A stretch of 32,618 nucleotides of DNA from Pseudomonadota bacterium (GTDB lineage Bacteria > Pseudomonadota > Gammaproteobacteria > Burkholderiales > Burkholderiaceae_C). The position numbers were made by a program, and so were the translations under genes. Position 1 is the first letter of the stretch. The number at the start of each line of letters is the position of its first letter. The stretch spans positions 1 through 32,618 of the forward strand of contig JAJZTW010000049.1 of NCBI GenBank assembly GCA_021847345.1, read 5' to 3'. Positions 1 through 24,721 of the stretch are shown here, piece by piece. The notes beneath the pieces were generated by a model. That model searched no databases. It was not told the origin of the DNA and saw nothing but the letters and a program-made list of their open reading frames with translations.

Positions 1-3000
1 CGCGCGGAACCCGGGCGCAGCATCAGCTTCGACGCCGGCGTGCTCAGCGACATCGAGGCCTTCGACGCCGGCTTTTTCGGCATTTCCCCGCGCGAAGCGC
101 AACTGCTCGACCCGCAGCAACGCCTGCTGCTGGAGCTGGCCTGGCAGGCCTTCGAGCACGCCGGCATCAAGCCCTCGGCCGCCTCCGGCAGCGACTGCGC
201 GGTGTACCTGGGCATTTCCGGGCTGGACTACGGCATGCGCGTGCTCGACGACCTGTCGGTGCTGGGCGCGCACACCATGACCGGCAACACCATGAGCGTT
301 GCCGCCAACCGCCTGTCCTACGTGTTCGACCTGCGCGGCCCCAGCGTGGCGGTGGACACCGCCTGCTCGTCGTCGCTGGTCGCGCTGCACCACGCCTGCT
401 CGGTGCTGCGCCAGGGCCAATGCGGCATGGCGCTGGCCGGCGGCGTCAACCTGCTGCTGCACCCCTACCCCTTCGTCGGCTTCACCAAGGCCTCGATGCT
501 GTCGGCGCAAGGCCGCTGCCGCCCCTTCGCCGAGGGCGCCGACGGCTACGTGCGCGCCGAGGGAGGCGCGCTGCTGCTGCTCAAGCCGCTGGCGCAGGCC
601 CTCGCCGACGGCGACACCGTGCACGGCGTGATCCGCGCCAGCGGGGTCAACACCGACGGCGCGCGCAAGAGCGGGCTGACCATTCCCAGCGGCGCCGCGC
701 AGGCCGAACTCATGCGCGGCGTGCTCGAGCAGGCCGGCCTGCGTGCCGATGAGGTCGACTACGTGGAAGCCCACGGCACCGGAACGCGCATCGGCGACCC
801 CATCGAGGCCGGCGCCATCGGCGCCGTCTACGGCAGCGGCAGCGGCCGGCGCGACGCCGAGCGGGCGCTTCCCATCGGCTCCATCAAGAGCAACCTCGGG
901 CACCTGGAGCCGGCCTCCGGCATGGCCGGGCTGCTCAAGGCCCTGCTCAGCCTCAAGCACGGCGCCGTGCCGCCGACCCGGCTGAGCGGACGTCTCAACC
1001 CCGACATCGATTTCGACAAGCTGGGCCTGCGGGTGGTGCAGCAGCCCGAGCCGCTGCAGCGCGGCGAGCGGCCGCTGCGCGCCGCCGTCAACTCCTTCGG
1101 CTTCGGCGGGGTCAACGCCCACGTGATCCTGGATCAGCCCCCGGTCGCCCCCCCGGCCGCGCCCGCTGCGCAGGCCACCAAGCCACAGGCCGCCTCCGCC
1201 TCCGCCCCCACCCCTGCCACCCAGCGCGAGGCCCCCTGCCCGCTGCTGCTGGGCGCCCACGACGCCGCCGCGCTGCGCGCACTGGCGCGCAGCTACGCCG
1301 AATGCCTGGGCGACGACCCCGCCGGGCGCGCCGCCGTGGCCCAGGCCGCGTGGCAGCAGCGCGAGTGGCTGCCCGAACGCCTGGCCCTTGCCGACGTCGC
1401 CGCCCCCGGCGCCGCGCAGGCGCTGCGCGACTTCGCCGACGGCGCCGCGGCGCCGGCCGTGCTGCACGAGCGCGTGTTGCCCGAGCACGCCACCCAGGCC
1501 GCCCCGCTGGCCTTCATCTACAGCGGCAACGGCGCGCAATGGGTCGGCATGGGCCGGCGCCTGCGCGCCCACAGCGCGAGCTTCGAACAGGCCCTGCGCG
1601 ACACCGCGTCGCGCATCGCCGCGCTCGGCGGCCCCGACCTGCTCGCCGCGCTGGCCGACGACCACGCCGACGCGCTGGACGACACCGCGGTGGCCCAGCC
1701 CGCGCTGTTCGCGCTGCAGGTGGCCGCCACCTGCGCCCTGCGCGAACTCGGCCTGCGCCCCGCCGCCACCATGGGCCACAGCGTGGGGGAGATCGCCGCC
1801 GCCTGGGCCGCCGGCGCGCTGGAACTGGACGACGCCTGCCGCGTGATCGTCGCGCGCAGCGCCGCGCAAGCCACCACCCGCGGCGCCGGCCGCATGGCCG
1901 CCGTGGGCCTGGGCGCCGAAGCACTGCAACAGCGCCTGCAGGCCCTCGGGCTGGCCGACGCGCTGCAGGTGGGCGCCGACAACAGCCCGCACAACTCCAC
2001 CGTCAGCGGCGACGCGCAAGCCCTGCGCGCGCTGCACGCCGCGCTGCGTGCCGAAGGCGTCGCCTGCCGCGAGCTCGCGCTCGACTACGCCTTCCACAGC
2101 CGCGCCATGGAGCCCATTCGCGAGGCCCTGCTGCACAGCCTGCAAGGCCTGCGCCCGCGCCCCGCCGCACTGCCCATGTTCTCCAGTGTCAGCGGCGGCG
2201 CCATCGCCGGCACGGAACTCGACGCCGAGTACTGGTGGCGCAACGTGCGCGAGCCCGTGCGCTTCGGCCCCGCGCTGCGCGCCATGGCTGCCGCCGGCTC
2301 GCGCCTGTTCCTGGAAATCGGCCCGCACGCCATCCTGCAGCGCTACATCACCGAGAACCTGCAGGCCGCCGGCCACGCCGGCCGCGCGCTGGCCTGCGCC
2401 CCCCGGCGCGAAGACAACGCCGAGCGCCTGCGCGAAGCCGTGCTGCGCTGCGCCATGCTCGGCGCGTCCTTCCAGGCCGACGCCTGGTTCGGCCAGCCGC
2501 TCCGGCAGCATCCGCGCCTGGCGCTGCCCGGCTACCCCTGGCAGCGCCAGCGCCATTGGTACGCCGCCACCACCGAGTCCTACGCGCTGATCGAGCGCCG
2601 CGCCGTGCACCCGCTGCTCGGCTGGCGCCTGCACGAGCCCGCCGCCGCCTGGGAAAACCACGTCGACCCCGCCACCCAGCCCTGGCTGGCCGGGCACCGC
2701 GTGGGGGGTGCCGTGGTGCTGCCCGCCGCCGCCTACGTGGAAATGGCCCTGGCCGCGTCGCGCGAGCATTTCGGGGGGGACAGCCACACCGTGGAAGGCC
2801 TCGACATCGTCTCCCCGGTGGTGTTCGACGGCGAGCACGCGCGCACCCTGCGCCTGCTGTTCGAGCCGCGCGACCTGCGTTTTCGCATCGAGGGCCGCCA
2901 GCGCCTGGGCGACGAGCCCTGGACCCTGCACGCCCAGGGCCGCCTGCTCGGCGCCGTGCCCGCCACGCAAGCCCGCCAGGCCAGCCTGGGCACGCCGCGG

Positions 3001-6000
3001 CCGGCCGCCGAAGCCGGCCCGCACCCGCAGCGCATCGACGGCGACGCGCACTACGCACTGTGCCAGCGCCTGGGCCTCGACTACACCGGGGAATTCCGCG
3101 GCATCGAGCGCATCGAGCTCGACCCCGCCACGCTGCTCGCCGAGCTGCGCGCCGAGTCCCACGGCGGAGCCTGGCTGCTGCCGCCGGCCGTGCTCGACCA
3201 GGCCTTCCAGGCCGTGCTCGGCTGGCTGGCCGCCTCCGGCGGCGCCGACGAGCTCGGCTACCTGCCGGTGGGAATCGGCCGGCTCGACGCCTGGCCCGCC
3301 CCCGCCGGCCAGCCCGCGCGCCCGGTGCGCCGGGTACGCGCCGCGCTGCTGCGCAGCAGCCCGCGCTCGGTGCTGGTGGACTTCGAGCTGCTCGACGCCG
3401 AGGGCCAGGTGCTCGCGCGCCTGCGCGAGTGCCGCTTCCGTGCCGCCGCGCTGGTGGCCCACCCCGCGGGAGTGAGCGCCTGGACCACCGAAGCCCGCCT
3501 GCAACCCGCGGCCCACGCCGCCAAGCGCCCCGAACTGCCCGCCACGGCCGCCTGGCTGGCCGATCTCGCGCACAGCCCGGCCCACGCCCCCGATGCCCAG
3601 GCGCTCGCACTGCACCAGCGCTACCTGGAACAGGCCGCGCCGCTGCTCGAACTGCTGCCGCTGGCCTACGCGCGCGACGCGCTGCGCGAGCTCACCGCGC
3701 CGCACGGCAGGCTGGAGCCGGCGCGCTTCGACGCCTGGAGCCAGGCCCACCCGCTGCTCGCCTGGGCCCTCACCCAGCTCGAGGACGAAGGCCTGCTGCG
3801 CGCGCAGGACGCCGCGGACGAAGTCACCTGGCAGTTGCACGACGACCCGCAACTGCCCGAAGCGCCGCACATCTGGCGCGAGGTGCTCGCCGCCTGTCCC
3901 GAGGCCGGCCCCGAGCTGCTACGCATGGGCCACGCCGGGCGCGCGCTGGCCCGGCTGATGCGCGCCGCCGACCACACCGCCGACCACACCCCCGACAGCG
4001 CCGTCGACAGCACCCCCGACAGCACCTCCCCGGAGCGCGCCGACCCCGCCCCCCTCCCCGCCCCGCTGCCGGCCGACCACGCCGCGCTGCTGCAGACCCC
4101 CGCCTACCGCGGCGCCGAGCAGGCCCTGCTGCAGGCGCTGGACGCGCTGGCCCGCCACTGGCCGGCCGGCCGGCGCATGCGCGTGCTCGAGCTGTGCGCA
4201 GACGACACGGTGCTGTTCGACGCCGCCAGCGCACGCCTGCAAGCCGCCCAGGCCCCTTGCGCGCGCCACCTCGACTGGGTGAGCGCCTGCGCCGACCCCG
4301 ACGCGCTGGCCCGCCTGCAAGGCACCCTGGCCACGCAAGGCGCCCAGCCCGCATCCCCCGGGCGGCGCGCCGTGCCGATGGACGCCCGCGCGCTGCAACC
4401 CGAACTCGCCGACGACGAACCCGCGTTCGACATCGTCGTGCTGCACCACGTGCTGCACCGGGCCGCGCATCCGGCGCGTGCGCTGCGCGCACTGGCCCAG
4501 CGCCTGCAGCCCGACGCCTGCCTGCTGCTGGCCGAACGCCGCCCCGACCACGCCGCGCTGCTGGGCTTCGGGCTCGACCCCGCCTGGTGGCTCGAGTCCG
4601 ACGGCCAGGCCGAGCCCGCGCTGCTCGGCGAGGCCGCATGGCGCAGCTGGCTGAGCGAGCAAGGCTGGCGCGAAACCCTGCCCGTCGCGTGGCCCCCGGC
4701 CCGCAGCGCCGACGCGCTCGACCCCGCCGCCACGCTGCTGGGCAGCTTCGTGCTCAGCGCGCGCCCGCCGGTGCCTGCCCAGCCCACCTCGCTCCCCACC
4801 TCGCTCCCCACCTCGCTGCCTGCCTCGCTCCCCGCCCCCCAGCCGGCAGCCCAACCGACCGGTCCGGCCACCACCTCGGCCGCCGCGCAAGCCCCCGCGA
4901 CCTGCGCGCTACACCTGCTGCAACCGGCGTGGCGCGAAGTGGCCGAGTCCCTCGCCCAGGCGCTGCGCGCCCAGGGCTGCGAGGCGCAGCTGCACGAACC
5001 GCGGGCCGCGCAAGGCGCCAACGCCGCCTTGCCCGACACCACTTGGTCGGACACCACCTTGCCCGACGCATCCCGCCACGTGCTGTTCACCGGCTGCGCC
5101 CAGCCGCGCGCCGACGCCGCCGAGCTGGCGCAACAGGCCGACGCGCTGCGCCGCACCCTGCTGCGCCTGGCTGCCGCCGAAGGCCGCCAGGCCTGCGTGG
5201 TCACGCGAGGCGGCGCGCTGGTCGACGACCCCCAGGTCACCAGCGCCGACCCCGCCGCGGCCGCGCTGTGGGGCCTGGCGCGCGTGGCCGCCAACGAATG
5301 CCACCCGCTGCGCCTGCGCCTGCTCGACCTCGACCCCACGCTGGGCAGCCCCGCCGCGCAGGCAAGCGCGCTGCGCGACGAACTGCTGCACGACGACGGC
5401 GAGGACGAAGTGCTGCTGCGCGGCGCCCCCGCCCCCGAAAGCGCCAGCACCGGCGCCCCGCACGAGCCCGCGCCGCTGCGCCACGTGCCGCGGCTGCGCA
5501 CGCTGGCGCTGGACCACCCCGAACTCAGCGCCGCGCAGGCCGCCGCGCAGGGCCAGGGCTGGCGCCTGGACTTCCGGCTCGCCGGCCAGTTGCGCAACCT
5601 GCACTGGCGCACGGCGCCGCGGCGCGACCCCGGCCCCGGCGAAGTGGAAATCGCCGCCGTCGCCGCCGGCCTGAACTTCCGCGACGTCATGTACGCCATG
5701 GGCCTGCTCGCCGACGAAGCCGTGGAACAAGGCTTCGCCGGCGCCAGCCTGGGCCTGGAAGTGGCCGGGCGCGTGCTGCGCTGCGGCCCCGGCGTGCAGC
5801 ACCTGCAGCCTGGCGACGAGGTGCTGGCCTTCGCCGGCGCCAGTTTCGCCAGCCACGTGGTGGTGCCCGCGCACGCCGTGGCGCGCAAGCCGGCGCACTG
5901 GAGCTTCGCCGAAGCCGCCACCGTGCCCACCGTGTTCTTCACCGTGTGGTACGCGCTGCAGCATCTGGCGCGCCTGCGCCGCGGCGAGCGCGTGCTGGTG

Positions 6001-7812
6001 CACGGCGCCGCCGGCGGCGTGGGCCTGGCCGCCATCCAGGTGGCCCGGCTGCTCGGCGCCGAGGTCTACGCCAGCGCCGGCAGCCCGGCCAAGCGCGAAT
6101 TCCTGCACATGCTCGGCGTGGCCCACGTGCTCGACTCGCGCGACCCCGACTTCGACCGCGAGGTGCTGCGCGCAAGCGGCGGCCAGGGCGTGGACGTGGT
6201 GCTCAACTCGCTGGCCGGCGAAGCCATCACCCGCAACCTGCAATGCCTCAAGCCCTTCGGTCGCTTCATCGAACTCGGCAAGCGCGATTTCTATGAAAAC
6301 ACCCCCGTCGGCCTGCGCCCCTTCCGCAACAACCTGAGCTACTTCGGAGTCGACGCCGACCAGCTCATGCAGCTGCAGCCCGAGCTCGCCCGCGAGATTT
6401 TCAGCGAGGTCATGCAGGCCTTCGCCGACGGCCACCTGCACCCGCTGCCGCACCGCGTGTTCGACGCCGACCACGTGGTCGACGCCTTCCGCCACATGCA
6501 GCTCGCGCGCCAGATCGGCAAGGTGGTGCTCAGCCTGGAGCGCCCCCCCAGCCACATCCGCGCCACCCCGGCGCCGCGACTGCGCCTGCCGGCCGACGCC
6601 AGCTACCTGGTCAGCGGCGGGCTGGGCGGCTTCGGCCTGGCCACCGCCCGCTGGCTGGCCGAGCGCGGCGCGCGCCACCTGGCCCTGCTCGGCCGGCGCG
6701 GCGCCGACACCCCCGGCCTGCAAGGCGCGCTCGACGAACTGCGCGCCCAGGGAGTGCAGGTGCGCGTGTTCGCCTGCGACGTCAGCCAGCGCGAAGCCGT
6801 GGGCCGCGTGCTGGCCGAACTGCGCGCCAACCTGCCTCCGCTGCGCGGCGTGGTGCACGCCGCCATGGTGCTCGACGACGCCCTCATGAACGGGCTCGAC
6901 GAGCAGCGCCTGCAGCGCGTGCTGCAACCCAAGCTCGACGGAGCGTGGAACCTGCACGAACTCACCGCCGCGGACCCGCTGGAGCACTTCGTGCTGTTCT
7001 CGTCGGCCACCACGCTGCTGGGCAACCCGGGCCAGGCCAACTACGTGGCCGCCAACGCCTCGCTCGAGGCCCTGGCCCGCCTGCGCCGAGCTCGCGGCCT
7101 GCCCGGCTGCGCGCTGGCCTGGGGCCCCATTGCCGACGTGGGCGTGCTGACCAGCAACCAGGCCGCGCGCGACCACCTCGAGTCGCGCCTGGGCGTGGCC
7201 CCCATCGCGTCGCGCGACGCGCTGCAAGCCCTGGAGCAGGTGCTGCTGCGCGAGCTGCCCGGCGCCGCGCTGATGAACCTGGACGGCGCCGCGCTGCAAC
7301 GCCTGCTTCCCGCCGCGCGCTCTCCGCGCTTCGCCGAACTGCGCCGGGCCGCGGGCCCGGCCGCCGACGCCTCCGAGCAGGACCTGCGCGCCCACCTGGC
7401 CACGCTGGCACCCGAGCAGGCGCGCGAACTGGTGCGCCGGCAACTGTGCCGCGAGGTGGCCGACATCCTGCGCCTGCCCGCCGACAAGGTCACCCCCGCG
7501 CACTCGGTGTTCGACCTCGGCATGGATTCCCTGATGGCCGTCGAACTCGGCCTGGCGCTGGAGCGGCGCTTCGGCATCCGCGTGCCGCCCATGCTGCTCA
7601 ACGAGAACCCCAGCATCGAGCGCATCGCCGAGCGCCTGCTGTCCCAGCTCACGCCCGCGCAAGGCGACCCCAGCGGCCCGGCCGACGCCACGCACGAACT
7701 CGTGCAGGGCCTGCTCGCCCAGCACGCCGAAACCGAGCAATTGCCACAGGCCGAACAACTCGTGCAGCAGGTGCGCGACGCCGCCGAGGGCGGCACGCGC
7801 CTCATCGCCTGA
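1..7812 (+). CDS. Capsule-locus type I polyketide/fatty acid synthase, KS-AT-DH-(inactive MT)-ER-KR-ACP, 5' partial
   Basis: The frame is open from base 1, and the first in-window residues already lie inside the ketosynthase, so the N terminus is upstream; the GTG at 40 is not the start. Numbering from base 1: KS about 1-375 (Cys122 in DTACSSS, His258 in EAHGTGT, then the SNLGH His motif); AT about 500-800 (Ser594 in GHSVGE; YAFHS suggests malonyl-CoA); DH about 865-1160 (His899 in HxxxGxxxxP, Asp1066); a methyltransferase-like region about 1190-1580 without a SAM-binding glycine motif; ER about 1855-2180 (NADPH motif GAAGGVG); KR about 2200-2420 (GGLGGFG, Tyr in NYVAANA, LDD typical of B-type); ACP with Ser2510 in GMDSL. 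There is no thioesterase. Known family: RkpA of Sinorhizobium and WcbR of Burkholderia pseudomallei, required for capsule-type polysaccharide. Inference: it builds a fully reduced acyl chain released by the alpha-oxoamine synthase 34 bp downstream. Confidence 0.93.
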   Translation, partial: RAEPGRSISFDAGVLSDIEAFDAGFFGISPREAQLLDPQQRLLLELAWQAFEHAGIKPSAASGSDCAVYLGISGLDYGMRVLDDLSVLGAHTMTGNTMSVAANRLSYVFDLRGPSVAVDTACSSSLVALHHACSVLRQGQCGMALAGGVNLLLHPYPFVGFTKASMLSAQGRCRPFAEGADGYVRAEGGALLLLKPLAQALADGDTVHGVIRASGVNTDGARKSGLTIPSGAAQAELMRGVLEQAGLRADEVDYVEAHGTGTRIGDPIEAGAIGAVYGSGSGRRDAERALPIGSIKSNLGHLEPASGMAGLLKALLSLKHGAVPPTRLSGRLNPDIDFDKLGLRVVQQPEPLQRGERPLRAAVNSFGFGGVNAHVILDQPPVAPPAAPAAQATKPQAASASAPTPATQREAPCPLLLGAHDAAALRALARSYAECLGDDPAGRAAVAQAAWQQREWLPERLALADVAAPGAAQALRDFADGAAAPAVLHERVLPEHATQAAPLAFIYSGNGAQWVGMGRRLRAHSASFEQALRDTASRIAALGGPDLLAALADDHADALDDTAVAQPALFALQVAATCALRELGLRPAATMGHSVGEIAAAWAAGALELDDACRVIVARSAAQATTRGAGRMAAVGLGAEALQQRLQALGLADALQVGADNSPHNSTVSGDAQALRALHAALRAEGVACRELALDYAFHSRAMEPIREALLHSLQGLRPRPAALPMFSSVSGGAIAGTELDAEYWWRNVREPVRFGPALRAMAAAGSRLFLEIGPHAILQRYITENLQAAGHAGRALACAPRREDNAERLREAVLRCAMLGASFQADAWFGQPLRQHPRLALPGYPWQRQRHWYAATTESYALIERRAVHPLLGWRLHEPAAAWENHVDPATQPWLAGHRVGGAVVLPAAAYVEMALAASREHFGGDSHTVEGLDIVSPVVFDGEHARTLRLLFEPRDLRFRIEGRQRLGDEPWTLHAQGRLLGAVPATQARQASLGTPRPAAEAGPHPQRIDGDAHYALCQRLGLDYTGEFRGIERIELDPATLLAELRAESHGGAWLLPPAVLDQAFQAVLGWLAASGGADELGYLPVGIGRLDAWPAPAGQPARPVRRVRAALLRSSPRSVLVDFELLDAEGQVLARLRECRFRAAALVAHPAGVSAWTTEARLQPAAHAAKRPELPATAAWLADLAHSPAHAPDAQALALHQRYLEQAAPLLELLPLAYARDALRELTAPHGRLEPARFDAWSQAHPLLAWALTQLEDEGLLRAQDAADEVTWQLHDDPQLPEAPHIWREVLAACPEAGPELLRMGHAGRALARLMRAADHTADHTPDSAVDSTPDSTSPERADPAPLPAPLPADHAALLQTPAYRGAEQALLQALDALARHWPAGRRMRVLELCADDTVLFDAASARLQAAQAPCARHLDWVSACADPDALARLQGTLATQGAQPASPGRRAVPMDARALQPELADDEPAFDIVVLHHVLHRAAHPARALRALAQRLQPDACLLLAERRPDHAALLGFGLDPAWWLESDGQAEPALLGEAAWRSWLSEQGWRETLPVAWPPARSADALDPAATLLGSFVLSARPPVPAQPTSLPTSLPTSLPASLPAPQPAAQPTGPATTSAAAQAPATCALHLLQPAWREVAESLAQALRAQGCEAQLHEPRAAQGANAALPDTTWSDTTLPDASRHVLFTGCAQPRADAAELAQQADALRRTLLRLAAAEGRQACVVTRGGALVDDPQVTSADPAAAALWGLARVAANECHPLRLRLLDLDPTLGSPAAQASALRDELLHDDGEDEVLLRGAPAPESASTGAPHEPAPLRHVPRLRTLALDHPELSAAQAAAQGQGWRLDFRLAGQLRNLHWRTAPRRDPGPGEVEIAAVAAGLNFRDVMYAMGLLADEAVEQGFAGASLGLEVAGRVLRCGPGVQHLQPGDEVLAFAGASFASHVVVPAHAVARKPAHWSFAEAATVPTVFFTVWYALQHLARLRRGERVLVHGAAGGVGLAAIQVARLLGAEVYASAGSPAKREFLHMLGVAHVLDSRDPDFDREVLRASGGQGVDVVLNSLAGEAITRNLQCLKPFGRFIELGKRDFYENTPVGLRPFRNNLSYFGVDADQLMQLQPELAREIFSEVMQAFADGHLHPLPHRVFDADHVVDAFRHMQLARQIGKVVLSLERPPSHIRATPAPRLRLPADASYLVSGGLGGFGLATARWLAERGARHLALLGRRGADTPGLQGALDELRAQGVQVRVFACDVSQREAVGRVLAELRANLPPLRGVVHAAMVLDDALMNGLDEQRLQRVLQPKLDGAWNLHELTAADPLEHFVLFSSATTLLGNPGQANYVAANASLEALARLRRARGLPGCALAWGPIADVGVLTSNQAARDHLESRLGVAPIASRDALQALEQVLLRELPGAALMNLDGAALQRLLPAARSPRFAELRRAAGPAADASEQDLRAHLATLAPEQARELVRRQLCREVADILRLPADKVTPAHSVFDLGMDSLMAVELGLALERRFGIRVPPMLLNENPSIERIAERLLSQLTPAQGDPSGPADATHELVQGLLAQHAETEQLPQAEQLVQQVRDAAEGGTRLIA
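4783..4830 (+). repeat. Four 12-bp tandem units in the PKS linker
   Basis: Units of the form CCCACCTCGCTC start at 4783, 4795, 4807 and 4819; the last one or two are slightly diverged. They encode a repeated T/A-S-L-P in the Pro/Ala-rich linker between the methyltransferase-like region and the reductase part. The 12-bp period keeps frame, so copy-number change would alter only linker length. A comparable low-complexity stretch (repeated DHT and DST) lies at about 3970-4030. Confidence 0.85.
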
Positions 7813-7846
7813 GAACCTGATGGCCTGACCCAACGAGCCCCCCACC

Positions 7847-9229
7847 GTGCACCCCGCCGACGACCCTCCCACCCGCCCCGCGCCCGCCGAGGCCGAGCCC
7901 GGCGCCGCCGCGCGCCCCACCGGCCTGGCCGCGCTGGCCCGCCGGCGCCTGCTCGAGCGCTTGCGCGGCCAGCCCGCGCAGGACGCCGCGGCAGCGCGCC
8001 CGCGCGGCCGGCAGGACCCGCACCCCGACGTGCCGGCCGCCTGGTGCCGCTTCGAGAACCACCCCGCCTACGAGCGCCTGCTGGTGTCGCAGGCAGCGGC
8101 GCAGCGCGTGGGCGTGGACAACCCGTTTTTCCGGGTGCACGAAGGAGCGGCCGGCGCCACCACGCGCATCGACGGGCGCGAGTACGTGAACTTCTCCAGC
8201 TACGACTACCTCGGGCTCAACGGGCACCCGCGCATCGAGCAGGCCGTGCTGCAGGCCGTGCGGCGCTACGGCACCTCCGCCTCGGCCAGCCGCCTGGTGG
8301 CCGGAGAGCGCCCCATCCAGCGCGAGCTCGAGCGCGAACTGGCCGATTGGTACCGCGTGGAGGAATGCGTGGCCTTCGTCAGCGGCCACGCCACCAACGT
8401 GAGCACCATCGGCTGCCTGCTCGGGCCGAAGGACCTGGTGCTGCACGACGCGCTGGTGCACAACAGCGTGCTCGAGGGCATCAAGCTGTCGGGTGCGCAC
8501 CGCCGCGGCTTCGCCCACAACGACTGGCGCCAGCTCGACGAGCTGCTGCACGAGCAGCGCAGCCAGTTCGAGCGCGTGCTCATCGTCATCGAGGGCCTCT
8601 ACAGCATGGACGGCGACGCGCCCGACCTCACGCGATTCGTCGAGGTCAAGCAGCGCCACAAGGCCTGGCTGATGGTCGACGAAGCCCATTCGCTCGGCGT
8701 GCTGGGCACCACCGGCCGCGGCGTGGCCGAGCACTGCCGCATCCCCGGCGACTGCGTCGACATCTGGATGGGCACCCTCAGCAAGAGCCTGGCCGGCTGC
8801 GGCGGCTTCGTCGCCGGCAGCCGCGCGCTGGTGGAACTGCTCAAGTACACCGCCCCCGGCTTCGTCTACAGCGTGGGCCTGTCGCCGGCGCTGGCCGCCG
8901 CTTCGCTGGAAGCGCTGCGCATGCTGCGCGAACAGCCCGAGCGCGTGGACGCGCTGCAGAAAAACGGCGCCTTCCTGTGCGGCTACGCCAAAAGCAAGGG
9001 CATCGACACCGGGCGCTCGCTGGGATTTGCCGTCACCCCGGCCATCACCGGCTCTTCGCTGAAAGCGGTGCAGGCCAGCAACCAGTTGCTCGAACAAGGC
9101 TTCAACGTGCAGCCCATCGTCCACCCAGCGGTGGAGGAAAGGGCCGCGAGGTTGCGATTTTTCGTGTGCGCGTCACACACCCGCGAGCAGATCGCCGGCG
9201 CCGTGGACGCGCTGGCGCGGCTGCTGTGA
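7847..9229 (+). CDS. PLP-dependent alpha-oxoamine synthase (BioF/SPT-like, capsule-lipid type)
   Basis: A 460-aa fold-type I PLP enzyme of the family of 8-amino-7-oxononanoate synthase, 2-amino-3-ketobutyrate CoA ligase and serine palmitoyltransferase, which decarboxylatively condense an amino acid with an acyl thioester. Visible signatures: YDYLGL, GTSASASR, SGHATN, DEAHS (Asp278, His281) and the Schiff-base lysine Lys313 in TLSKS. The first 80 or so residues are a Pro/Ala/Arg-rich extension not found in BioF; GTG 7847 is the first start after the PKS stop, and a shorter start inside the extension is possible. It follows the PKS by 34 bp, as RkpG accompanies RkpA and WcbT accompanies WcbR. 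No other biotin gene is nearby, so a bioF role is unlikely. Inference: it offloads the PKS acyl chain onto an amino acid, giving a sphingoid-like amino ketone. The substrates are unknown. Confidence 0.9.
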   Translation: MHPADDPPTRPAPAEAEPGAAARPTGLAALARRRLLERLRGQPAQDAAAARPRGRQDPHPDVPAAWCRFENHPAYERLLVSQAAAQRVGVDNPFFRVHEGAAGATTRIDGREYVNFSSYDYLGLNGHPRIEQAVLQAVRRYGTSASASRLVAGERPIQRELERELADWYRVEECVAFVSGHATNVSTIGCLLGPKDLVLHDALVHNSVLEGIKLSGAHRRGFAHNDWRQLDELLHEQRSQFERVLIVIEGLYSMDGDAPDLTRFVEVKQRHKAWLMVDEAHSLGVLGTTGRGVAEHCRIPGDCVDIWMGTLSKSLAGCGGFVAGSRALVELLKYTAPGFVYSVGLSPALAAASLEALRMLREQPERVDALQKNGAFLCGYAKSKGIDTGRSLGFAVTPAITGSSLKAVQASNQLLEQGFNVQPIVHPAVEERAARLRFFVCASHTREQIAGAVDALARLL

Positions 9230-9260: not shown

Positions 9261-10763
9261 ATGATGAACCTGATCCCGGTGATCCTTTCCGGCGGCGCGG
9301 GCAGCCGCCTGTGGCCCGTCTCCCGCGAAAGCCACCCCAAGCCCTTCATCCGCCTGGCCGACGACCAGAGCCTGCTGCAAAAGACCCTGCTGCGCGCCGC
9401 CGCGCTGCCCGGGGTGCAGCAGGTGGTCACCGTGACCAACCGCGAATTCCTGTTCAAGACCGAGGACGACTACCGCGAGGTCGCCACGGGCGAGCTGCAG
9501 CAACTGCAGCACAGCTTCCTGCTCGAACCCATGGGGCGCAACACGGCCGCCGCCGTGGCCGCCGCCGCGCTGCACGCGGCCGAACGAGAACCCGACACCC
9601 TGCTGCTGGTCCTGCCGGCCGACCACCTGATTCACGACGAGGCGGCCTTCGCCCACGCCGTGCAACGCGCGGCCGCGCTGGCCGCCGACGGCCGCCTGGT
9701 GACCTTCGGCATCACCCCCGAAGCCCCCGAGACCGGCTACGGCTACATCGAGGCCGACGGCCACATGGTCAAGCGCTTTGTCGAAAAGCCCGACGCCGCC
9801 ACCGCGCAGCGCTTCCTGGAAGCCGGAAACTTCTACTGGAATTCCGGCATGTTCTGCTTCCGCGCCTCCACCATGGTGGCCGAACTGCGCCAGCACGCGC
9901 CCGACATCCTGGAGGCCGTGGAAACCTGCCTGCGCGAAGCCCGCCGCGCCAGCGGCAAGGGCTTCGAACACATCGAGTTCACCCCCGAAACCTTCGCCCG
10001 CGTGCTCGAGGACTCCATCGACTACGCCGTGATGGAAAAGTCCCGCCAGGTGGCCGTGGTGCCCTGCTCCATCGGCTGGAGCGACATCGGCTCCTGGACC
10101 GCGCTCACCGACCTGCAGCCGGCCGACCAGCACGGCAACCGCGTGCGCGGCGAAGCCCTGCTGCACGACGTGAGCAACTGCGCCATCCAGGCCGAGCACG
10201 ACCGCCTGGTGGGCGCCGTGGGCGTGGACAACCTGGTGATCGTCGACACCCCAGACGCCCTGCTGGTGGCCGCGCGCGACCGCGTGCAGGACGTCAAGGC
10301 CCTGTACACCCAGCTCAAGCGCACCGCCCACCCGGCGCACAAGCTGCACCGCACCGTTCACCGCCCCTGGGGCACCTACACCGTGCTGGAGGAAGGGCCG
10401 CATTTCAAGATCAAGCGCATCGTGGTCAAGCCCGGCGCCAGTCTTTCGCTGCAAATGCACCACCACCGCAGCGAGCACTGGATCGTGGTGTTCGGCACCG
10501 CACGCATCGTCAACGGCGAGCAGGAGCGATTCGTGCCCAGCAACGAATCCACCTTCATCCCACCGTGCACCCAGCACCGCCTGACCAACCCGGGCATGGT
10601 GGACCTGGTGCTCATCGAAGTGCAGACCGGACACTACCTGGGGGAAGACGACATCGTGCGCTTCCAGGACATCTACGGCCGCAGCGACGCCAACGCCGCG
10701 GGATCCCCTGCCAGCACTGCGCCGGCCATGGCAAAGGACGCCACCGCCGCGCCCCAGCACTAA
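9261..10763 (+). CDS. manC: Bifunctional mannose-1-phosphate guanylyltransferase / mannose-6-phosphate isomerase
   Basis: A 500-aa type II PMI-GMP enzyme making GDP-mannose from fructose-6-phosphate-derived mannose phosphates in the cytoplasm. The N-terminal nucleotidyltransferase begins with SGGAGSRLWPVSRES and HPKPF, has FVEKPD near residue 174 and NSGMFCF near 194. The C-terminal cupin (about 355-480) has PWGTYTVLEE and the metal-binding stretch LSLQMHHHRSEHW of type II isomerases. Length matches AlgA/CpsB/XanB proteins. The ATG at 9261 is preceded by GGAG at 9251-9254, a good spacing; the next codon is also ATG. It lies 31 bp after the oxoamine synthase. Its product feeds Gmd and Rmd downstream and any mannosyltransferase of the locus. 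High-GC like the upstream genes. Confidence 0.96.
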   Translation: MMNLIPVILSGGAGSRLWPVSRESHPKPFIRLADDQSLLQKTLLRAAALPGVQQVVTVTNREFLFKTEDDYREVATGELQQLQHSFLLEPMGRNTAAAVAAAALHAAEREPDTLLLVLPADHLIHDEAAFAHAVQRAAALAADGRLVTFGITPEAPETGYGYIEADGHMVKRFVEKPDAATAQRFLEAGNFYWNSGMFCFRASTMVAELRQHAPDILEAVETCLREARRASGKGFEHIEFTPETFARVLEDSIDYAVMEKSRQVAVVPCSIGWSDIGSWTALTDLQPADQHGNRVRGEALLHDVSNCAIQAEHDRLVGAVGVDNLVIVDTPDALLVAARDRVQDVKALYTQLKRTAHPAHKLHRTVHRPWGTYTVLEEGPHFKIKRIVVKPGASLSLQMHHHRSEHWIVVFGTARIVNGEQERFVPSNESTFIPPCTQHRLTNPGMVDLVLIEVQTGHYLGEDDIVRFQDIYGRSDANAAGSPASTAPAMAKDATAAPQH

Positions 10764-10799: not shown

Positions 10800-11933
10800 G
10801 TGACCGAATCGCAGCACCCCCCGCGCAAGCCCTTCTGGCAGCGCATCAACAAACTCTTCCTGTTCCTGGTGGTCATCCCCACGCTGGGCTCCAGCCTGTA
10901 CTTCGGGCTGATCGCCAGCGATGTGTACATCTCCCAGTCCAAGTTCGTCATCTACAACCCGCAGACCCCCAGCCCCGGCACAGGTCTGGGCGGCCTGCTG
11001 CAGGGCGTGGGCTTGGGCAACAACAGCAGCTACGCGGCCAACGCGGTTCACGACTACCTGCTCAGCCGCGACGCCCTGCAGGACTTGCAGAAGACCCTGC
11101 ACTACCGCCAGATGGTCAGCCGCCAGGGCATCGACCCCTTCAACCGCTTCGGCGGCTGGGTGTGGTTCGACACAACCTTTGAGCAGCTCTACCGCTACTA
11201 CACCCGTATGGTCGGTGACGAGGTCGACGCCACCAGCAACATCAGTACGTTAAACGTCGATGCGTACACGGCCATTGACGCGCAACGCGTGAACCAGAAG
11301 TTGTTGACCCTCGCTCAGCAGTTAGTCAACCGCATGAATGCCCGCGCCAACCAGGACTCGGTGCAGTTCTACCAGCGCCAAGTGCTCGCTGCGGAAGCCA
11401 AAGTCCAGGCGGCCGCCGAGGCACTCGCCCGCTACCGCAACCATTCCAAGGTGTTCAGCCCGGCCCCCCAGGCCGACCTGCAGGCGCAGCTGGTCAGCAA
11501 GCTGCAGGACCAGCAACTCGCAGCACAGGTTCAACTGGGCCAAATGGAACTCAATGCCCCAAAGAACCCACGCATTCCCCTGATCAAAAAGGGAATAGCC
11601 GATCTCCAGAGGCAGATCGCCAATCAATCGGCGGAGGTTGCCGGCAATCATGAATCCTTGGCCAGCAAGTCGGTCGAATATGAACAACTAAACCTTGCAC
11701 AGAGCTTTGCACAAAAAGAACTGGCTGCCGCGATCAGTTCGCTGAAACAAGCGCGAATTCAGGCACAGAAACACCAATTATTCATCGAAACCATTGTTCA
11801 ACCTAACAAACCAGACGAACCGATGCTCCCAAGACGGATGCGCAACATCCTGTCCACAACTATAATTACACTATTCCTCTGGGGGATATTTAGCGTAATT
11901 ATCGGCGGCATCCGCGAGCACAATGAACGATAA
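10800..11933 (+). CDS. kpsE: Capsule polysaccharide export inner-membrane protein, KpsE/WcbD/CtrB family
   Basis: A 377-aa polysaccharide co-polymerase (PCP-3 type) linking the KpsMT ABC transporter to the outer-membrane channel across the periplasm. Seen: a short cytoplasmic N terminus, a membrane helix about 20-40, a periplasmic region rich in Gln/Ala/Leu heptads (about 175-320, coiled coil), a proline-containing segment near 330 (IVQPNKPDEPMLPRR) typical just before the second helix, a C-terminal helix about 350-370 and a short basic tail. GTG at 10800 is the start that includes the complete first helix; its ribosome site is weak. The stop overlaps kpsM by 11 bp. Base composition falls within the gene: the first third is as GC-rich as manC, and the last third matches the low-GC genes that follow. 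Confidence 0.92.
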   Translation: MTESQHPPRKPFWQRINKLFLFLVVIPTLGSSLYFGLIASDVYISQSKFVIYNPQTPSPGTGLGGLLQGVGLGNNSSYAANAVHDYLLSRDALQDLQKTLHYRQMVSRQGIDPFNRFGGWVWFDTTFEQLYRYYTRMVGDEVDATSNISTLNVDAYTAIDAQRVNQKLLTLAQQLVNRMNARANQDSVQFYQRQVLAAEAKVQAAAEALARYRNHSKVFSPAPQADLQAQLVSKLQDQQLAAQVQLGQMELNAPKNPRIPLIKKGIADLQRQIANQSAEVAGNHESLASKSVEYEQLNLAQSFAQKELAAAISSLKQARIQAQKHQLFIETIVQPNKPDEPMLPRRMRNILSTTIITLFLWGIFSVIIGGIREHNER

Positions 11934-12711
11934 GTCCACGCCCCTTCTTACCAAGGCCCGCATTCAGTTTCGCGTTATTTGGGCGCTTACTATGCGCGAA
12001 ATCATCACCCGCTTCGGGCGGGAGGGTCTTGGCGCGTTCTGGCTCGTCGCAGAACCCGCCATGTTTATCATCGGGGTTATGATCATCTTTTCCCATATCG
12101 AGAAAAACCCTGGCTATTCTATCGCCGAATATTTAGCAGTGAGCTACCCCACTCTCCTTTTTTGGCGCAACGGAACAAGCCGCGTCACGAAGGCAATCGA
12201 GATCAACAGGGCCCTATTGCACCACGAACCAATCAAACCAATAGACATTCTTTATTCCCGAATACTATTAGAGTTTTCAAGCTCCGCCGCAGCCTTTATA
12301 GTTCTCTACACCGCCTTCGTCGCAGCGGGCATCTGCTCGTGGCCCGCAGATTCCCTTAAATTTATCCTGGGCTATCTACTAATCATTCTTTTTTCGTTTG
12401 CCTTCGTGCTCACGATGGCCGCACTAGCAGAACTGAGCGACACAATCGAGCGAGTCTCGCACATCATACTTTATTTGATGCTCCCATTTTCGGGCGTTTT
12501 CCTCCCCCTGTATAGCATCCCAAATCGGTACAGAGAAATTCTCCTAAAATTCCCGCTTATTGATGCCGTTGAGTACTTCCATGCGGGCTACTACGGAGCG
12601 CGAATGCCGACCTACTACCACGCCTGGTACGCAATAATATCAATACTAGGGCTAACACTCTTCGCATACGCCCTCACAAACGTCTCGATCAGAAAACTCC
12701 AGTTGACCTAG
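11923..12711 (+). CDS. kpsM: Capsule ABC exporter permease, KpsM/Wzm-type
   Basis: A 262-aa ABC-2 type permease that with KpsT moves the finished, lipid-linked polysaccharide across the inner membrane. The N terminus has the family signature MREIITRFGREGLGAFW followed by an EPA turn. About six hydrophobic segments follow, and the loop around residue 200 (LPFSGVFLPLYSIP) is typical of KpsM. The ATG at 11923 lies inside the last codons of kpsE, so the two are translationally coupled. The partner kpsT is not adjacent but about 11.4 kb downstream, after the variable sugar genes. The gene is AT-rich compared with manC and kpsT (a sampled row is about 38% GC), so it appears to travel with the central cassette. 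Confidence 0.93.
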   Translation: MNDKSTPLLTKARIQFRVIWALTMREIITRFGREGLGAFWLVAEPAMFIIGVMIIFSHIEKNPGYSIAEYLAVSYPTLLFWRNGTSRVTKAIEINRALLHHEPIKPIDILYSRILLEFSSSAAAFIVLYTAFVAAGICSWPADSLKFILGYLLIILFSFAFVLTMAALAELSDTIERVSHIILYLMLPFSGVFLPLYSIPNRYREILLKFPLIDAVEYFHAGYYGARMPTYYHAWYAIISILGLTLFAYALTNVSIRKLQLT

Positions 12712-17615: not shown

Positions 17616-19099
17616 ATGCCCCCAACCACAATTGAATTTTTTGGCTGCCCTGTAAGCGAAGTCGAACCAGCAGATCCTGCGCATCATCTAAAATGCTCTA
17701 AATTAGCCTTTGAGATACTGCGCCCAAGCCCCCCCCGTCATCTTTAACTAGAATAGGCGGAGAAGGCGACGGAGCATATCTTTTGCCATCGGACTTTGAG
17801 GGCGTTACGGCTTGTTTTTCACCAGGCGTTAACAATAGAAAAGATTTCGAAGATGAGCTCGTACAAAGATATGATACACCTTGCTACCTGTGCGATTATT
17901 CGAGCGATGTGAGAAATTTTTCAAGCCCCCTCATCGCGGGACGGCGGTCATTCTTCAAGCTGTGGCTCGATGTGGGCAACAAGGAAAACTCAATATCCTT
18001 AGATGATTGGGTAAAAATGAGCCCCACCAACTCCGGAGACCTAGTTCTTCAGATGGACATCGAGGGCGCAGAATATCGGAACATCTTAGGTACATCCGAC
18101 AGCACTCTAAAGCGCTTTAGGTATATCGTTCTGGAGCTTCACGGTCTGCGGAGGGCCTTCGAAGACCCTGCAATTCTCAGTCAAGTCCTTCTTCCTTTTT
18201 TAGAAAAGCTTCACAAAAATCTTGTATGCGTACATGTTCATCCGAATAATTACAGCGATGAGGGATGGATCTCAGGCGTAGAAACAAATATTGGTGATGT
18301 AATGAAGGTGACTTTTTGCAGACGCGACTGGTACGAAGCAAATTTGCATAACCGCGCAGCGCGCGTAGTACTTCCACATCCGCTTGACATAAAGCGTAAC
18401 AACCTTCAGCGAATGCCAATCGTGCTCGGCGATGAATGGTTGGGCAGAAAGCGATCGGTTGAAGATCAGATTGGACTGATGCGCGATGAAATTGACTTCA
18501 TTCGCTGCAAGCAAGAGCATGACATTGAACAAAGGCTAGGTAAGCTTAACGAGGCGCTTTACGACTCAATCACTTTTACGATGAGAGCCCAAGCACAGCA
18601 AGGAGCCAGCGCTCTATCGGAAAGTGAAGCGATAGCCCTCGAGGAAATTGCGAACGGCAAATCATACCTGATAAGCAGTACCGCCGGTTTATCGACAACA
18701 GGCGTGATAAGTGAAGATTATGCGCCTTATTTTTTCCACACAAATCTCGACTTCAATCAATGGATTACGGTTGATTTGGAAGAATGCAGAACGATTCGTC
18801 GAATCGTAATTGCCAATCGTCGAGATGCCTGCTGGAGTCGCGCGAAGTTTCTTTTTTTGGTGACGCATCTTGAGATGGATTATCGCTCGGGCAAGGTTAA
18901 TTATATTAATGCGCCTCCATCCTTTTTTTCCGCAGCTCCGGAGGATGCCGTTATCGACATTCCACCTACAGCGGCGCGCTTTATTACCATAGTCTCTCCG
19001 CTGTATACATACCTACATCTTTCCAAAATCCAAGTATACGCGACAACATCGCCTGACTCCAACGCATCGGAAGGGCCTAAGGAGTCACTGAGTAAATGA
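17616..19099 (+). CDS. FkbM-family methyltransferase with discoidin-like C-terminal domain, frameshifted at a C8 tract
   Basis: As read, the gene is in two frames. ATG 17616 opens a frame (MPPTTIEFFGCPVSEVEP...) that stops at 17745. The second frame, entered at the C8 run 17729-17736, continues with SSLTRIGGEGDGAYLLPSDF and runs to 19099. One extra C joins them into about 494 aa. The joined N terminus has the glycine-rich opening of FkbM-like SAM methyltransferases (GEGDGAYLLP, CFSPGV), and the acidic LQMDIEGAEYRNIL motif follows. A helical linker (about residues 265-325) leads to a C-terminal beta domain (about 335-475: SSTAGLSTTG, YFFHTNLDFNQWITVDL, IVIANRRDACWSRA, YLHLSKIQVYA) like F5/8 type C carbohydrate-binding domains. 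Likely role: O-methylation of capsule sugar. The TTG at 17783 is a poor start because it cuts off the SAM-site opening. Low GC. The gene ends 8 bp before the IS end. Confidence 0.75.
17729..17736 (+). repeat. C8 homopolymer at the frameshift point of the FkbM-type methyltransferase
   Basis: Eight consecutive cytosines follow CAAG in an otherwise low-GC gene. With eight Cs the upstream frame stops nine bases later; with nine Cs (or six) the two halves fuse in frame. This is the structure expected of slipped-strand phase variation, and equally of a single-base sequencing or assembly error. Confidence 0.8.
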
Positions 19100-22499: not shown

Positions 22500-24057
22500 G
22501 CAGGTCGCGGCACTCGCCGAGTTGCGCCCGGCGCTCGACGGGCACTACGGCATCCCCCAGGAGACACGCCTGCTTTTTTCTGCGCTGGCCGCGCAGGAGT
22601 CGGTGCGCTTGCAGGGCCTGCTGCAGATGTCCATGCGCGCCACGCTCGGCGGCACTTCGGCGGCCGACTCGATGCCAATCGCCGAGCAGGTGCACCGCTA
22701 CTCGCGCACCGTGGTCTCGCTCAAGGGCAAGACGGCTTCCGACTGGAAGGCCGGGGTCGGGGAGTTTCTGCGCTTTCAGGCGTCCCGCTGGGCGCTTCGC
22801 CTGTCGGCGTGGTTCGGGCTGGGCGGCGTGCGCCTGAATCGATTCCAGACCCGCTACTTCGAGGACTTCGTCTGGCAGAACCTGTTCGCTCGCAGCCTGC
22901 CGCCTGCGGACCGTGAACGCGTACTGGCTTGCGACCACCTGATCTGCCCTGCTCCGTGGCGCTTCATGCATCTCGCGGGGTTGGAGCGGCGCTGGCTGCT
23001 GCGCCGGGCGGCCTATCCGCGCCTGGATACCTCGGGTGCCGATGTGTTCATCGCGCAAACGCCCTACCCCGGGCGGGTGGCCAAGGGCACCGCGCTGGTG
23101 GTGCACTATCACGACGCCATTCCGGTGCTGATGCCCCACACCATCTCGGACCGCGCCTTCCACCAGGCCAGCCACTTCCACGCGCTGGCCGCCAATGTGC
23201 GCGATGGCGCCTGGTTCGCTTGCGTGTCGGAGGCCACGCGGCAAGACCTGCTGCGCCTGTTCCCGCAAGCCGCGCCGCGAGCAGTGACCATCCACAACAT
23301 GGTGCCGTCGCACTACTATCCTGCGCAGCCCGAAGCGGATCGCCTGCCGGGAATCGTGCGGCGCTACCAGCACGGGGAATTCGTTCCGCCCAAGGTGAAG
23401 AAGCCTACGCGCACCTACCGCCTCGCACGCCGCTTCGGCAGCGAGGAGCAGACCGCGGCGTTTTTCCAGCAGGCCTTCGGGCTTGGTTGCCGCTACCTGC
23501 TGATGGTGTCGACCATCGAGCCGCGCAAGAACCATCAGCGCCTTCTTGAGGCCTGGGAAATGCTGCGCGACCGCGTGGACGCCAACCTGAAGCTCGTGTT
23601 CGTGGGCCACATCGGGTGGGACTACAAGAGTGTGCTCGATGGCTGCGAGACCTGGATCGAGCAAGGCGGCCTGTTCATGCTGCATAGCGTGCCGGCCGAT
23701 GCCCTTCGCGTGCTGTACCGCCAGGCGCTGGTCACCGTGTGCCCCAGCGTGGGCGAAGGATTCGACTTCGCCGGTGCCGAGGCCATGCGCTGCGCCGGCG
23801 TGGTGGCGGCTTCCGACATCCCCGTGCACCGCGAGGTGTATGGTGAAGCCGCCGAGTATTTCGACCCCTACGACACCTCCAGCCTGGTGGCCGCGCTGCG
23901 CAAGCTGATCGACGCGCCGGATGCTGAAACCAGGCGCGAGGAGCTGCGCACCGCGGGCGTTGCGCAAAGCGAAGCCTACATGCCCGAGCGCATCGCTCCC
24001 CGGTGGGTGGAGTTCCTGCAACGCGTGGTCGCAGAGACCCGCCAGGAAACGCATTGA
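22492..24057 (+). CDS. GT4-family glycosyltransferase (probable mannosyl/rhamnosyltransferase)
   Basis: A 521-aa GT-B glycosyltransferase. The C-terminal domain shows STIEPRKNHQRLLEAWEML near residue 343, VFVGHIGWDYKSV, and PSVGEGFDFAGAEAMRCAG with an EX7E pair, followed by ASDIPVHREVYGEAAEYFDP, the pattern of bacterial GT4 mannosyltransferases such as those of D-mannan and D-rhamnan O antigens. The N-terminal 180 residues include an Arg/Leu-rich helical stretch of unclear role before HYHDAIPVLMPH. ATG 22492 overlaps the rmd stop; longer upstream frames inside rmd are rejected because the family similarity starts later. It lies directly after the GDP-D-rhamnose genes, which suggests GDP-mannose or GDP-rhamnose as donor. 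High GC. Confidence 0.88.
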   Translation: MAEQVAALAELRPALDGHYGIPQETRLLFSALAAQESVRLQGLLQMSMRATLGGTSAADSMPIAEQVHRYSRTVVSLKGKTASDWKAGVGEFLRFQASRWALRLSAWFGLGGVRLNRFQTRYFEDFVWQNLFARSLPPADRERVLACDHLICPAPWRFMHLAGLERRWLLRRAAYPRLDTSGADVFIAQTPYPGRVAKGTALVVHYHDAIPVLMPHTISDRAFHQASHFHALAANVRDGAWFACVSEATRQDLLRLFPQAAPRAVTIHNMVPSHYYPAQPEADRLPGIVRRYQHGEFVPPKVKKPTRTYRLARRFGSEEQTAAFFQQAFGLGCRYLLMVSTIEPRKNHQRLLEAWEMLRDRVDANLKLVFVGHIGWDYKSVLDGCETWIEQGGLFMLHSVPADALRVLYRQALVTVCPSVGEGFDFAGAEAMRCAGVVAASDIPVHREVYGEAAEYFDPYDTSSLVAALRKLIDAPDAETRREELRTAGVAQSEAYMPERIAPRWVEFLQRVVAETRQETH

Positions 24058-24067
24058 CGCCACGCCT

Positions 24068-24721
24068 ATGTTGCAACTCATCGACGTCTGCAAGAGTTAT
24101 CCCATTCACCACGGCCGCAGCATGCGCCAGGTGCTGGACCATGTGAACCTCACCGTTCGCCCCGGCGAGAAGTGGGGCATCATGGGGCGCAACGGCGCCG
24201 GCAAGTCCACGATGATCCGCATCATGAGCGGCTCGGACCGGCCGCACAGCGGCACCATCCGCAAGGACATGTCGGTGTCGTGGCCGCTGGCCTTCGGCGA
24301 TGCCTTCCAGGGCAGTCTCACCGGCAAGGACAACGCCCGCCTGATCTCGCGCGTGTACGGGGTGGACTACCACAAGACCCTGGACATGGTGGAGAGCTTC
24401 GCCGAACTCGGCGCCTACCTGGGCGAGCCGGTGAAAAGCTATTCCTCGGGCATGCGCGCGCGCCTGGCCTTCGCCATTTCCATGGCCATCGAGTTCGACT
24501 GTTTCCTGATCGACGAAGCCATGTCGGTGGGCGACCACCGCTTCACCGTGAAGTGCGACGTGGAGTTGTTCCAGAAACGCGGGGACCGCGCCATGGTCAT
24601 CGTCGCCCACCAGACGGACCTGATCCGCGCCCACTGCGACCATGCCGCCATCCTCGACCAGGGGCGCCTGACGGTGTGCGACAGCGTGGACGAGGCCATC
24701 CGCGTGTATGAAAACCTCTGA
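24068..24721 (+). CDS. kpsT: Capsule ABC exporter ATP-binding protein, KpsT/Wzt-type
   Basis: A 217-aa ATPase, the usual KpsT length and without the extra C-terminal domain of Wzt. It has Walker A GRNGAGKST near residue 40, signature SYSSGMRARLAFA near 129, Walker B FLIDEAMSVGD near 151, and H-loop IVAHQTD. The stretch around GEKWGIMGRNG and the short form are typical of group 2 capsule exporters. ATG 24068 is 10 bp after the glycosyltransferase stop; upstream in-frame codons lie in that gene and are not used. It energises KpsM, which is encoded about 11.4 kb upstream. The C terminus overlaps the next gene by 14 bp. GC-rich, unlike kpsM, so the two halves of the exporter have different compositional histories. 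Confidence 0.95.
   Translation: MLQLIDVCKSYPIHHGRSMRQVLDHVNLTVRPGEKWGIMGRNGAGKSTMIRIMSGSDRPHSGTIRKDMSVSWPLAFGDAFQGSLTGKDNARLISRVYGVDYHKTLDMVESFAELGAYLGEPVKSYSSGMRARLAFAISMAIEFDCFLIDEAMSVGDHRFTVKCDVELFQKRGDRAMVIVAHQTDLIRAHCDHAAILDQGRLTVCDSVDEAIRVYENL

Follow-up and report, generated by a model that had tools for sequence, protein, structure and literature searches.

The closest described relatives of the locus treated here are the rkp genes of Sinorhizobium (rkpA, rkpG, rkpH) and the wcb genes of Burkholderia (wcbR, wcbT), in which a polyketide synthase (PKS) is paired with an alpha-oxoamine synthase (AOS) and, in rkp, accompanied by a short-chain dehydrogenase/reductase (SDR), RkpH. Capsule-locus PKS genes have been described as rkpA and wcbR, and the rkp and wcb genes have been equated with one another (PMC3908369). 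In the open-access literature we searched, the lipid arising from the rkpA/rkpG and wcbR/wcbT pairs is undefined, and no paper was found that ties such pairs to sphingolipid chemistry, most subscription papers lying outside that search. Here, we analyze a stretch of 32,618 b, referred to as the window, which is one whole contig (C32; JAJZTW010000049.1) of a Burkholderiales genome of 3.66 Mb in 117 contigs, 93% complete (the source genome), and which opens with a PKS-AOS pair followed by capsule genes. Handles beginning with G, C and L denote genomes, contigs of the source genome and loci, respectively.

Three further systems bear on this pair. In Porphyromonas gingivalis, a mutant in serine palmitoyltransferase (SPT) has less K-antigen capsule, and its authors offer, as speculation, that surface polysaccharide may be anchored by sphingolipids (PMC5126122). 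In group 2 capsules, KpsS is the enzyme that puts the first 3-deoxy-D-manno-oct-2-ulosonic acid (Kdo) on the capsule lipid, with (lyso)phosphatidylglycerol as acceptor (research paper PMC10148158; review PMC12220298), and roles have been described for the modules of KpsC (PMC10148158). The rhodobacterial ceramide pathway comprises AasR, AcpR, SPT, CerR and CerS (PMC9386255, PMC11324152, PMC11087976), its SPTs favoring a specialized acyl carrier protein (ACP) that a dedicated synthetase loads (PMC9386255, PMC11324152). A locus of this pathway is also present in E. coli BL21.

Compared with the rkp/wcb kind, by description and not by sequence, our locus likewise combines a reducing type I PKS, an AOS-type gene and capsule export genes: a fully reducing monomodular PKS directly precedes the AOS, and export genes lie in the same locus. 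It differs in that no RkpH-type SDR of the source genome reaches the expected strength, and a CerR-like dehydrogenase and a FemAB/GNAT protein are encoded at KpsS instead; because this SDR is one defining feature, we regard the locus as a variant akin to the rkp/wcb kind and not as a plain member. With the ceramide pathway it shares an ACP-bound acyl donor, an SPT-clade AOS and an epimerase-family dehydrogenase, but the chain comes from a PKS rather than from AasR loading, the N-acyl candidate is unrelated in sequence to YghO, and the genes keep company with KpsS and capsule export. Like group 2 capsules, it has a KpsS homologue and an exporter of the KpsE, KpsM and KpsT type (PMC10148158, PMC12220298), whereas its KpsC homologue is single-module and its lipid genes suggest a sphingoid acceptor. 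The P. gingivalis case concerns another phylum, the accessible part of that account contains no PKS, and anchoring there is speculative (PMC5126122).

We propose, with a probability of roughly 0.55, that the PKS and AOS start a sphingoid-lipid pathway whose product is reduced, perhaps N-acylated and furnished with Kdo by KpsS-linked enzymes, giving the lipid anchor of the capsule. The PKS would assemble a straight, saturated chain on the ACP that it carries itself, and the AOS would condense this chain with an amino acid, probably serine, releasing a 3-keto sphingoid base from the ACP. Enzymes encoded beside KpsS would then reduce the base and, in the source genome, the FemAB/GNAT protein would perhaps N-acylate it. 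KpsS would add Kdo to the sphingoid and the KpsC homologue of contig C79 a single beta-(2->7) Kdo, after which transferases encoded in the window would extend the polymer and KpsMTE would export it. We infer every step past the AOS from gene neighborhood; chain length, amino acid, N-acylation, step order, use of the lipid by KpsS, export by KpsMTE and attachment to the capsule are likewise inferred. The two genes that would start the pathway have the following parts.

1..7812, forward strand: fully reducing monomodular PKS, truncated on its 5' side where the contig stops, with its start on C114 (Pfam domains; 2603-aa open frame 1; 127-b overlap)
1..1317, forward strand: ketosynthase (KS), Cys-His-His present (Pfam; motifs in 29/29 synthases covering them)
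1513..2415, forward strand: acyltransferase (AT), GHSVGE and YAFH (Pfam; motifs in 30/30)
2608..3447, forward strand: dehydratase (DH), His and Asp present (Pfam; 30/30)
4132..4668, forward strand: methyltransferase-like region with degenerate S-adenosylmethionine (SAM) loop (PF13489 at 8.4e-8, weak; three-glycine loop in 0/30)
5632..6531, forward strand: enoylreductase (ER) (Pfam; glycine-rich loop)
6598..7134, forward strand: ketoreductase (KR), catalytic Tyr present (Pfam; Tyr in 30/30)
7441..7638, forward strand: ACP with DSL serine (PF00550 at 2e-17; DSL in 30/30)
7847..9229, forward strand: AOS of the SPT-side clade, true start uncertain within the first ~30 codons (PF00155, Aminotran_1_2; tree; pyridoxal phosphate (PLP) residues in 50/50)

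Since the window begins at a contig end, the PKS reading frame runs open into base 1; the missing KS start is on C114, whose overlap with the beginning of the window is exactly 127 b long. In an alignment of the window synthase with 29 relatives (L103 dropped as short, L111 without the KS columns), the AT motifs GHSVGE and Y-x-F-H are intact in all 30, motifs that we take to be of the malonyl type. The methyltransferase-like region is called degenerate by the three-glycine SAM loop of such enzymes. By established PKS rules, the intact KS, AT, DH, KR and ACP motifs and the degenerate methyltransferase loop together predict that the chain is saturated and unbranched and stays on the ACP; the ER is weak in L125 and L121. 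Pfam found no thioesterase domain in the frame at 1–7812. The first-pass annotation, made from the letters of the window, had described a fully reducing PKS without thioesterase followed by an SPT/BioF-family enzyme, manC and kpsE, an outline that Pfam and the capsule-exporter match of the KpsE-like protein confirm; the degenerate methyltransferase region is a feature beyond it.

Judged by its sequence, the AOS belongs on the SPT side, outside the BioF and Kbl clades. In a FastTree phylogeny rooted on Kbl, which holds 69 sequences (the partial L028 and L041 dropped, no 5-aminolevulinate synthase included), 50 AOS family members group, with support 1.0, with the L160 enzyme, L036 and the SPTs from two other genomes and from E. 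coli BL21. The family itself is monophyletic at 0.85, BioF forms a separate clade (0.999), and L036, labeled BioF-like beforehand, is placed among the SPTs. The PLP-site His, Asp, His and Lys and an Arg are kept in all 50 members, and an Asn follows the stacking His in 50/50 of them vs 0/18 compared SPT, BioF and Kbl sequences. When the source genome was searched with an SPT model (E<=1e-60), one other match appeared, on C44, and no canonical SPT passed the cut-off; the tree places this C44 enzyme with BioF. As for the amino acid used, a Ser in the GxR loop is common to SPT and most BioF sequences and thus gives no verdict, and no residue compared in the alignment sets serine users apart from others. 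A partial AOS, 44% identical to that of the window, was also seen on a 3.7-kb contig of a Chloroflexi metagenome-assembled genome (L028).

The genomic company of AOS genes in relatives points to a dedicated acyl supply. A PKS is the preceding gene in 36 of 49 related loci, on the same strand in all 36; 17 of these pairs show a 4-b stop/start overlap and 35 overlap or lie within 141 b, with 930 b separating the pair in L110. The pairing goes beyond chance: the same kind of PKS precedes the AOS in 12 of the 18 loci from titled genome records with at least 50% AOS identity. In the other six, a fatty acyl-AMP ligase (FAAL) and an ACP lead, forming one polypeptide with the AOS in five and two open reading frames (ORFs) with an apparent frame break in L016. 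Searches of the order and class yielded 31 further loci, with a PKS preceding in 24, a gene in between in L121, a FAAL-ACP-AOS fusion in L130, and neither arrangement in L122, L123, L124, L129 and L131. In all, FAAL and ACP stand in place of the PKS in 7/49 loci (L018, L019, L027 and L130 by Pfam; L016, L020 and L026 by tblastn), fused in six. The FAAL-ACP-AOS polypeptides measure 1114–1175 aa, and L016, L018, L019, L020, L026 and L027 are mostly from Planctomycetes. The L130 fusion, whose AOS is 49% identical to the window AOS, lies between homologues of CerR (3.7e-35) and CerS/YghO (8.6e-70), so that an AOS of the window kind does occur in a ceramide-type gene row. A seeming PKS-AOS fusion in L010 (one 1664-aa ORF) was discarded, as the PKS domains are in another frame and the ORF is an off-frame one in G+C-rich DNA.

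The link to the capsule rests on co-occurrence with PF05159, the KpsC/KpsS family. At an AOS threshold of E<=1e-100, 26 of 399 genomes of the order carry the AOS and 49 carry PF05159, which is found in 19/26 AOS-positive vs 30/373 AOS-negative genomes (p 5e-14; one of the 19, G556, by a weak match). Grouped by genus, the only way in which kinship was handled, the counts are 14/17 vs 19/142 (p 9e-9). In a sample of the class, 6 of 274 genomes carry the AOS. In the source genome, the KpsC and KpsS homologues are encoded on C79, outside the window, and PF05159 occurs nowhere else in that genome at E<=0.001; the KpsS homologue matches it at 8.3e-68. The KpsC homologue (L045:13061-14089) is a single module of 342 aa that is nearer to the C-terminal than to the other module of the two-module KpsC of L112 and L117 (51–52% vs 41–42% identity). 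From this likeness, it may add one beta-(2->7) Kdo, and, KpsC being single-module, the Kdo linker of the source genome may be very short. The first-pass annotation had pointed upstream of base 1 for an rkpH-like reductase and for KpsC/KpsS. Neither was seen on C114, where the rkpH verdict comes from large ORFs judged by eye without a family search (they resemble one DUF2236-type and two lipase-type proteins), and the KpsC/KpsS homologues proved to be on C79.

Reductase genes tie the presumed sphingoid chemistry to KpsS more closely. In ten loci (L015, L017, L112, L115, L117, L126, L128, L142, L156, L157), KpsS is directly followed, on the same strand and with an overlap or a gap of up to ~15 b, by an SDR of the kind that comes after the AOS in L022. 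Profiles of the reductases and of the FemAB/GNAT protein were run over 31 AOS-positive genomes and over 16 AOS-negative ones, the latter having the stronger PF05159 matches among 30 such in the order. The nine-sequence SDR profile scored better than 1e-90 in 15/31 of the former vs 0/16 of the latter, or 9/25 vs 0/16 without the six seed genomes (p 0.006). In the source genome, an RkpH-type SDR as in L022 is not present at the expected strength, the best match in its 93% complete assembly being 3.9e-47 where others are at least as strong as 1e-90; searches for an rkpH there with one SDR and with the nine-sequence profile gave only generic SDR scores, and the best match, on C107, was rejected. 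By the profile, the SDR is also lacking in G488, G351, G431, G615, G641 and G666. In these six genomes, in the source genome and in G577, a ~340-aa NAD-dependent dehydrogenase of the epimerase family is encoded directly upstream of KpsS, and the FemAB/GNAT gene lies beside it in seven of the eight and on another contig in G666. The dehydrogenase and FemAB profiles are strong in exactly the same 8/47 genomes; as seeds came from all eight for the former and from seven for the latter, the tests show absence elsewhere, and presence is non-independent. The SDR and the dehydrogenase-FemAB set co-occur in 0/47 genomes. In G641 the FemAB-dehydrogenase-KpsS set falls within 5 kb after the PKS-AOS pair, while in G615 the PKS comes right after KpsS. 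KpsS thus has reductases of two unrelated types as neighbors, in support of a sphingoid-type product with a link to the capsule. Variation exists: a different SDR adjoins the AOS in G591, G400 and G616, a divergent SDR lies ~0.7 kb from KpsS in G292, and G092 is the genome of L130. The SDRs of L122–L124 resemble 3-ketosphinganine reductases by a motif that we presume to be diagnostic; the NCBIfam model KdsR, considered for L123 and L124, gave 125.7 on the L124 SDR against a cut-off of 400 and was absent from the 25 rows listed for L123.

The dehydrogenase keeps its Rossmann glycines and Ser-Tyr-Lys in 8/8 sequences, and its profile, run over 1982 ORFs, retrieved its own orthologues and then four proteins from SPT-type loci. 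The FemAB/GNAT protein is a plausible candidate N-acyl transferase, with an aminoacyl transferase as an alternative candidate role: the nearest structures to its AlphaFold model (built from seven sequences; mean pLDDT, a per-residue confidence score, of 77.5) are FemX, related aminoacyl-tRNA-dependent transferases and MprF domains, matches that serve as a lead only. A reading of it as a CerS orthologue gained no support when it was compared with YghO of E. coli and was dropped; the search for CerS/YghO covered the fetched stretches and found the homologue in L130. A 798-aa frame at L160:8303-10699 (genome G330) has a FemAB/GNAT-like first half and an SPT-like second half (33% over 355 aa, 2.6e-39), and the FemAB/GNAT profile, which finds that first half, also matches a PF13480 protein in G378. 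An acyl-AMP-ligase-like stretch lies close to the L160 fusion frame. The first-pass annotation had predicted an ACP-bound saturated chain handed to the AOS, a sphingoid-like amino ketone as product and a capsule role. The saturated chain on the ACP, the hand-over, the sphingoid type and the capsule link gain support from the FAAL-ACP-AOS fusions, the PKS motifs, the SPT-side tree, the KpsC/KpsS co-occurrence and the reductases beside KpsS. The amino ketone need not be the end product: a reduced, perhaps N-acylated, sphingoid is more likely, given the CerR-like dehydrogenase and FemAB/GNAT transferase encoded just upstream of KpsS on another contig of the source genome.

Other readings of the pair account for part of these data. 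On one of them, which seems to us unlikely, the product is a sphingoid-type small metabolite or lipid of the membrane that stays free of the capsule, and surface genes are simply clustered in one locus. PF05159 is absent from 7/26 AOS-positive genomes of the order (G333, G378, G400, G526, G591, G603, G616), the PKS-AOS pair of L015 has no adjacent capsule-export gene among those probed although KpsS and the SDR follow, and membrane sphingolipids are made by canonical SPT loci (PMC11324152), all of which count for a free lipid. Against it stand the strong PF05159 association by genome and by genus and the SDR or dehydrogenase that immediately adjoins KpsS in 18 loci; moreover, G378 (L102) and G333 (L108), without any PF05159 match, have Wza-, KpsM-, KpsT- and KpsE-like genes directly after the AOS. 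We hold it to be distinctly unlikely that KpsS keeps its (lyso)phosphatidylglycerol acceptor and that the PKS-AOS lipid has another capsule role, such as a carrier or packing lipid. The source genome does encode a KpsS homologue, scoring 180 bits with the KpsS model NF050054, below its cut-off of 600, and the homologues studied so far use that acceptor (PMC10148158, PMC12220298); two unrelated reductase types directly beside KpsS, and not beside the AOS, are left unexplained. An AOS of the BioF or Kbl type, serving primary metabolism, is highly improbable: bioF gives the top NCBIfam score (349.5 bits, below the cut-off of 426), whereas the tree separates the AOS from both clades, the C44 enzyme already occupies the BioF clade in the source genome, and the His-Asn pair of the family is foreign to the SPT, BioF and Kbl sequences compared.

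Besides the bioF score, the genomes lacking PF05159 and the acceptor used by known KpsS homologues, several findings weigh against a KpsS-linked sphingoid anchor. None of three NCBIfam SPT models passed on the AOS (188–289 bits vs cut-offs of 500–670), the dehydrogenase is only 26–30% identical to CerR of the canonical SPT loci L150 and L151, the FemAB/GNAT profile misses YghO, the known ceramide N-acyltransferase candidate of E. coli, and the structural likeness of the FemAB/GNAT model is to aminoacyl transferases. Strict dependence is made less likely by G577, which has FemAB, dehydrogenase and KpsS while the AOS is absent at 1e-100, and no partner reductase was found in the AOS-positive genomes G353, G423, G603 and G526. 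Furthermore, C79 and C32 are unjoined in the present assembly.

With the anchor pathway, a lipid that was undefined would gain a named biosynthetic route and, in KpsS, a defined enzyme to accept it. If it is correct, some KpsS-type capsules end in a sphingoid or ceramide lipid instead of (lyso)phosphatidylglycerol, and sphingolipid-type chemistry extends to bacteria, the source organism among them, that have no canonical SPT locus. More tentatively, and at somewhat less than even odds, there may be a second anchor class for KpsS/KpsC capsules, a ceramide built from a polyketide chain, with PKS, SPT-like AOS, FemAB/GNAT N-acyltransferase and CerR-like reductase as its enzymes and with KpsS placing Kdo on the sphingoid head. 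On this view, the reductase sets next to KpsS are non-homologous substitutes for one another, and capsules like the present one would have no more than a di-Kdo linker, given their single-module KpsC homologue. The AOS His-Asn pair and a reductase beside KpsS offer genome markers.

Beyond the PKS and AOS, the window runs through ManC, a KpsE-like and a KpsM-like gene, with glycosyltransferases, two nucleotide-sugar enzymes and an ABC ATPase farther on.

9261..10763, forward strand: ManC, mannose-1-phosphate guanylyltransferase / mannose-6-phosphate isomerase (PF00483, PF01050)
10800..11933, forward strand: KpsE-like capsule export protein (solved capsule exporter chain 8tsh_E, 4.5e-28)
11923..12711, forward strand: KpsM-like ABC permease (PF01061; solved capsule exporter chain 8tsh_C, 4.2e-18)
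23921..24721, forward strand: KpsT-like ABC ATPase (PF00005)

Two overlapping ORFs at 20488–22499 encode a GDP-mannose 4,6-dehydratase and another NAD-dependent epimerase, making a GDP-6-deoxy sugar in the capsule likely. These two are the only SDR-superfamily genes among the main window ORFs, the set to which Pfam was applied, and within that range the statement that the window holds no SDR for the ketone stands. A single predicted protein at 17783–19099 joins an FkbM-type methyltransferase domain to a galactose-binding (F5/8 type C) domain. At the right end, where C33 overlaps the window by 127 b, an IS605-type OrfB with a Cas12f1-like TNB domain occupies 31511–32506 on the reverse strand, its start running on into C33. 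On C33 itself (L068:1957-6601), several adjacent ORFs look, by eye and without a family search, like photolyase or cryptochrome relatives.

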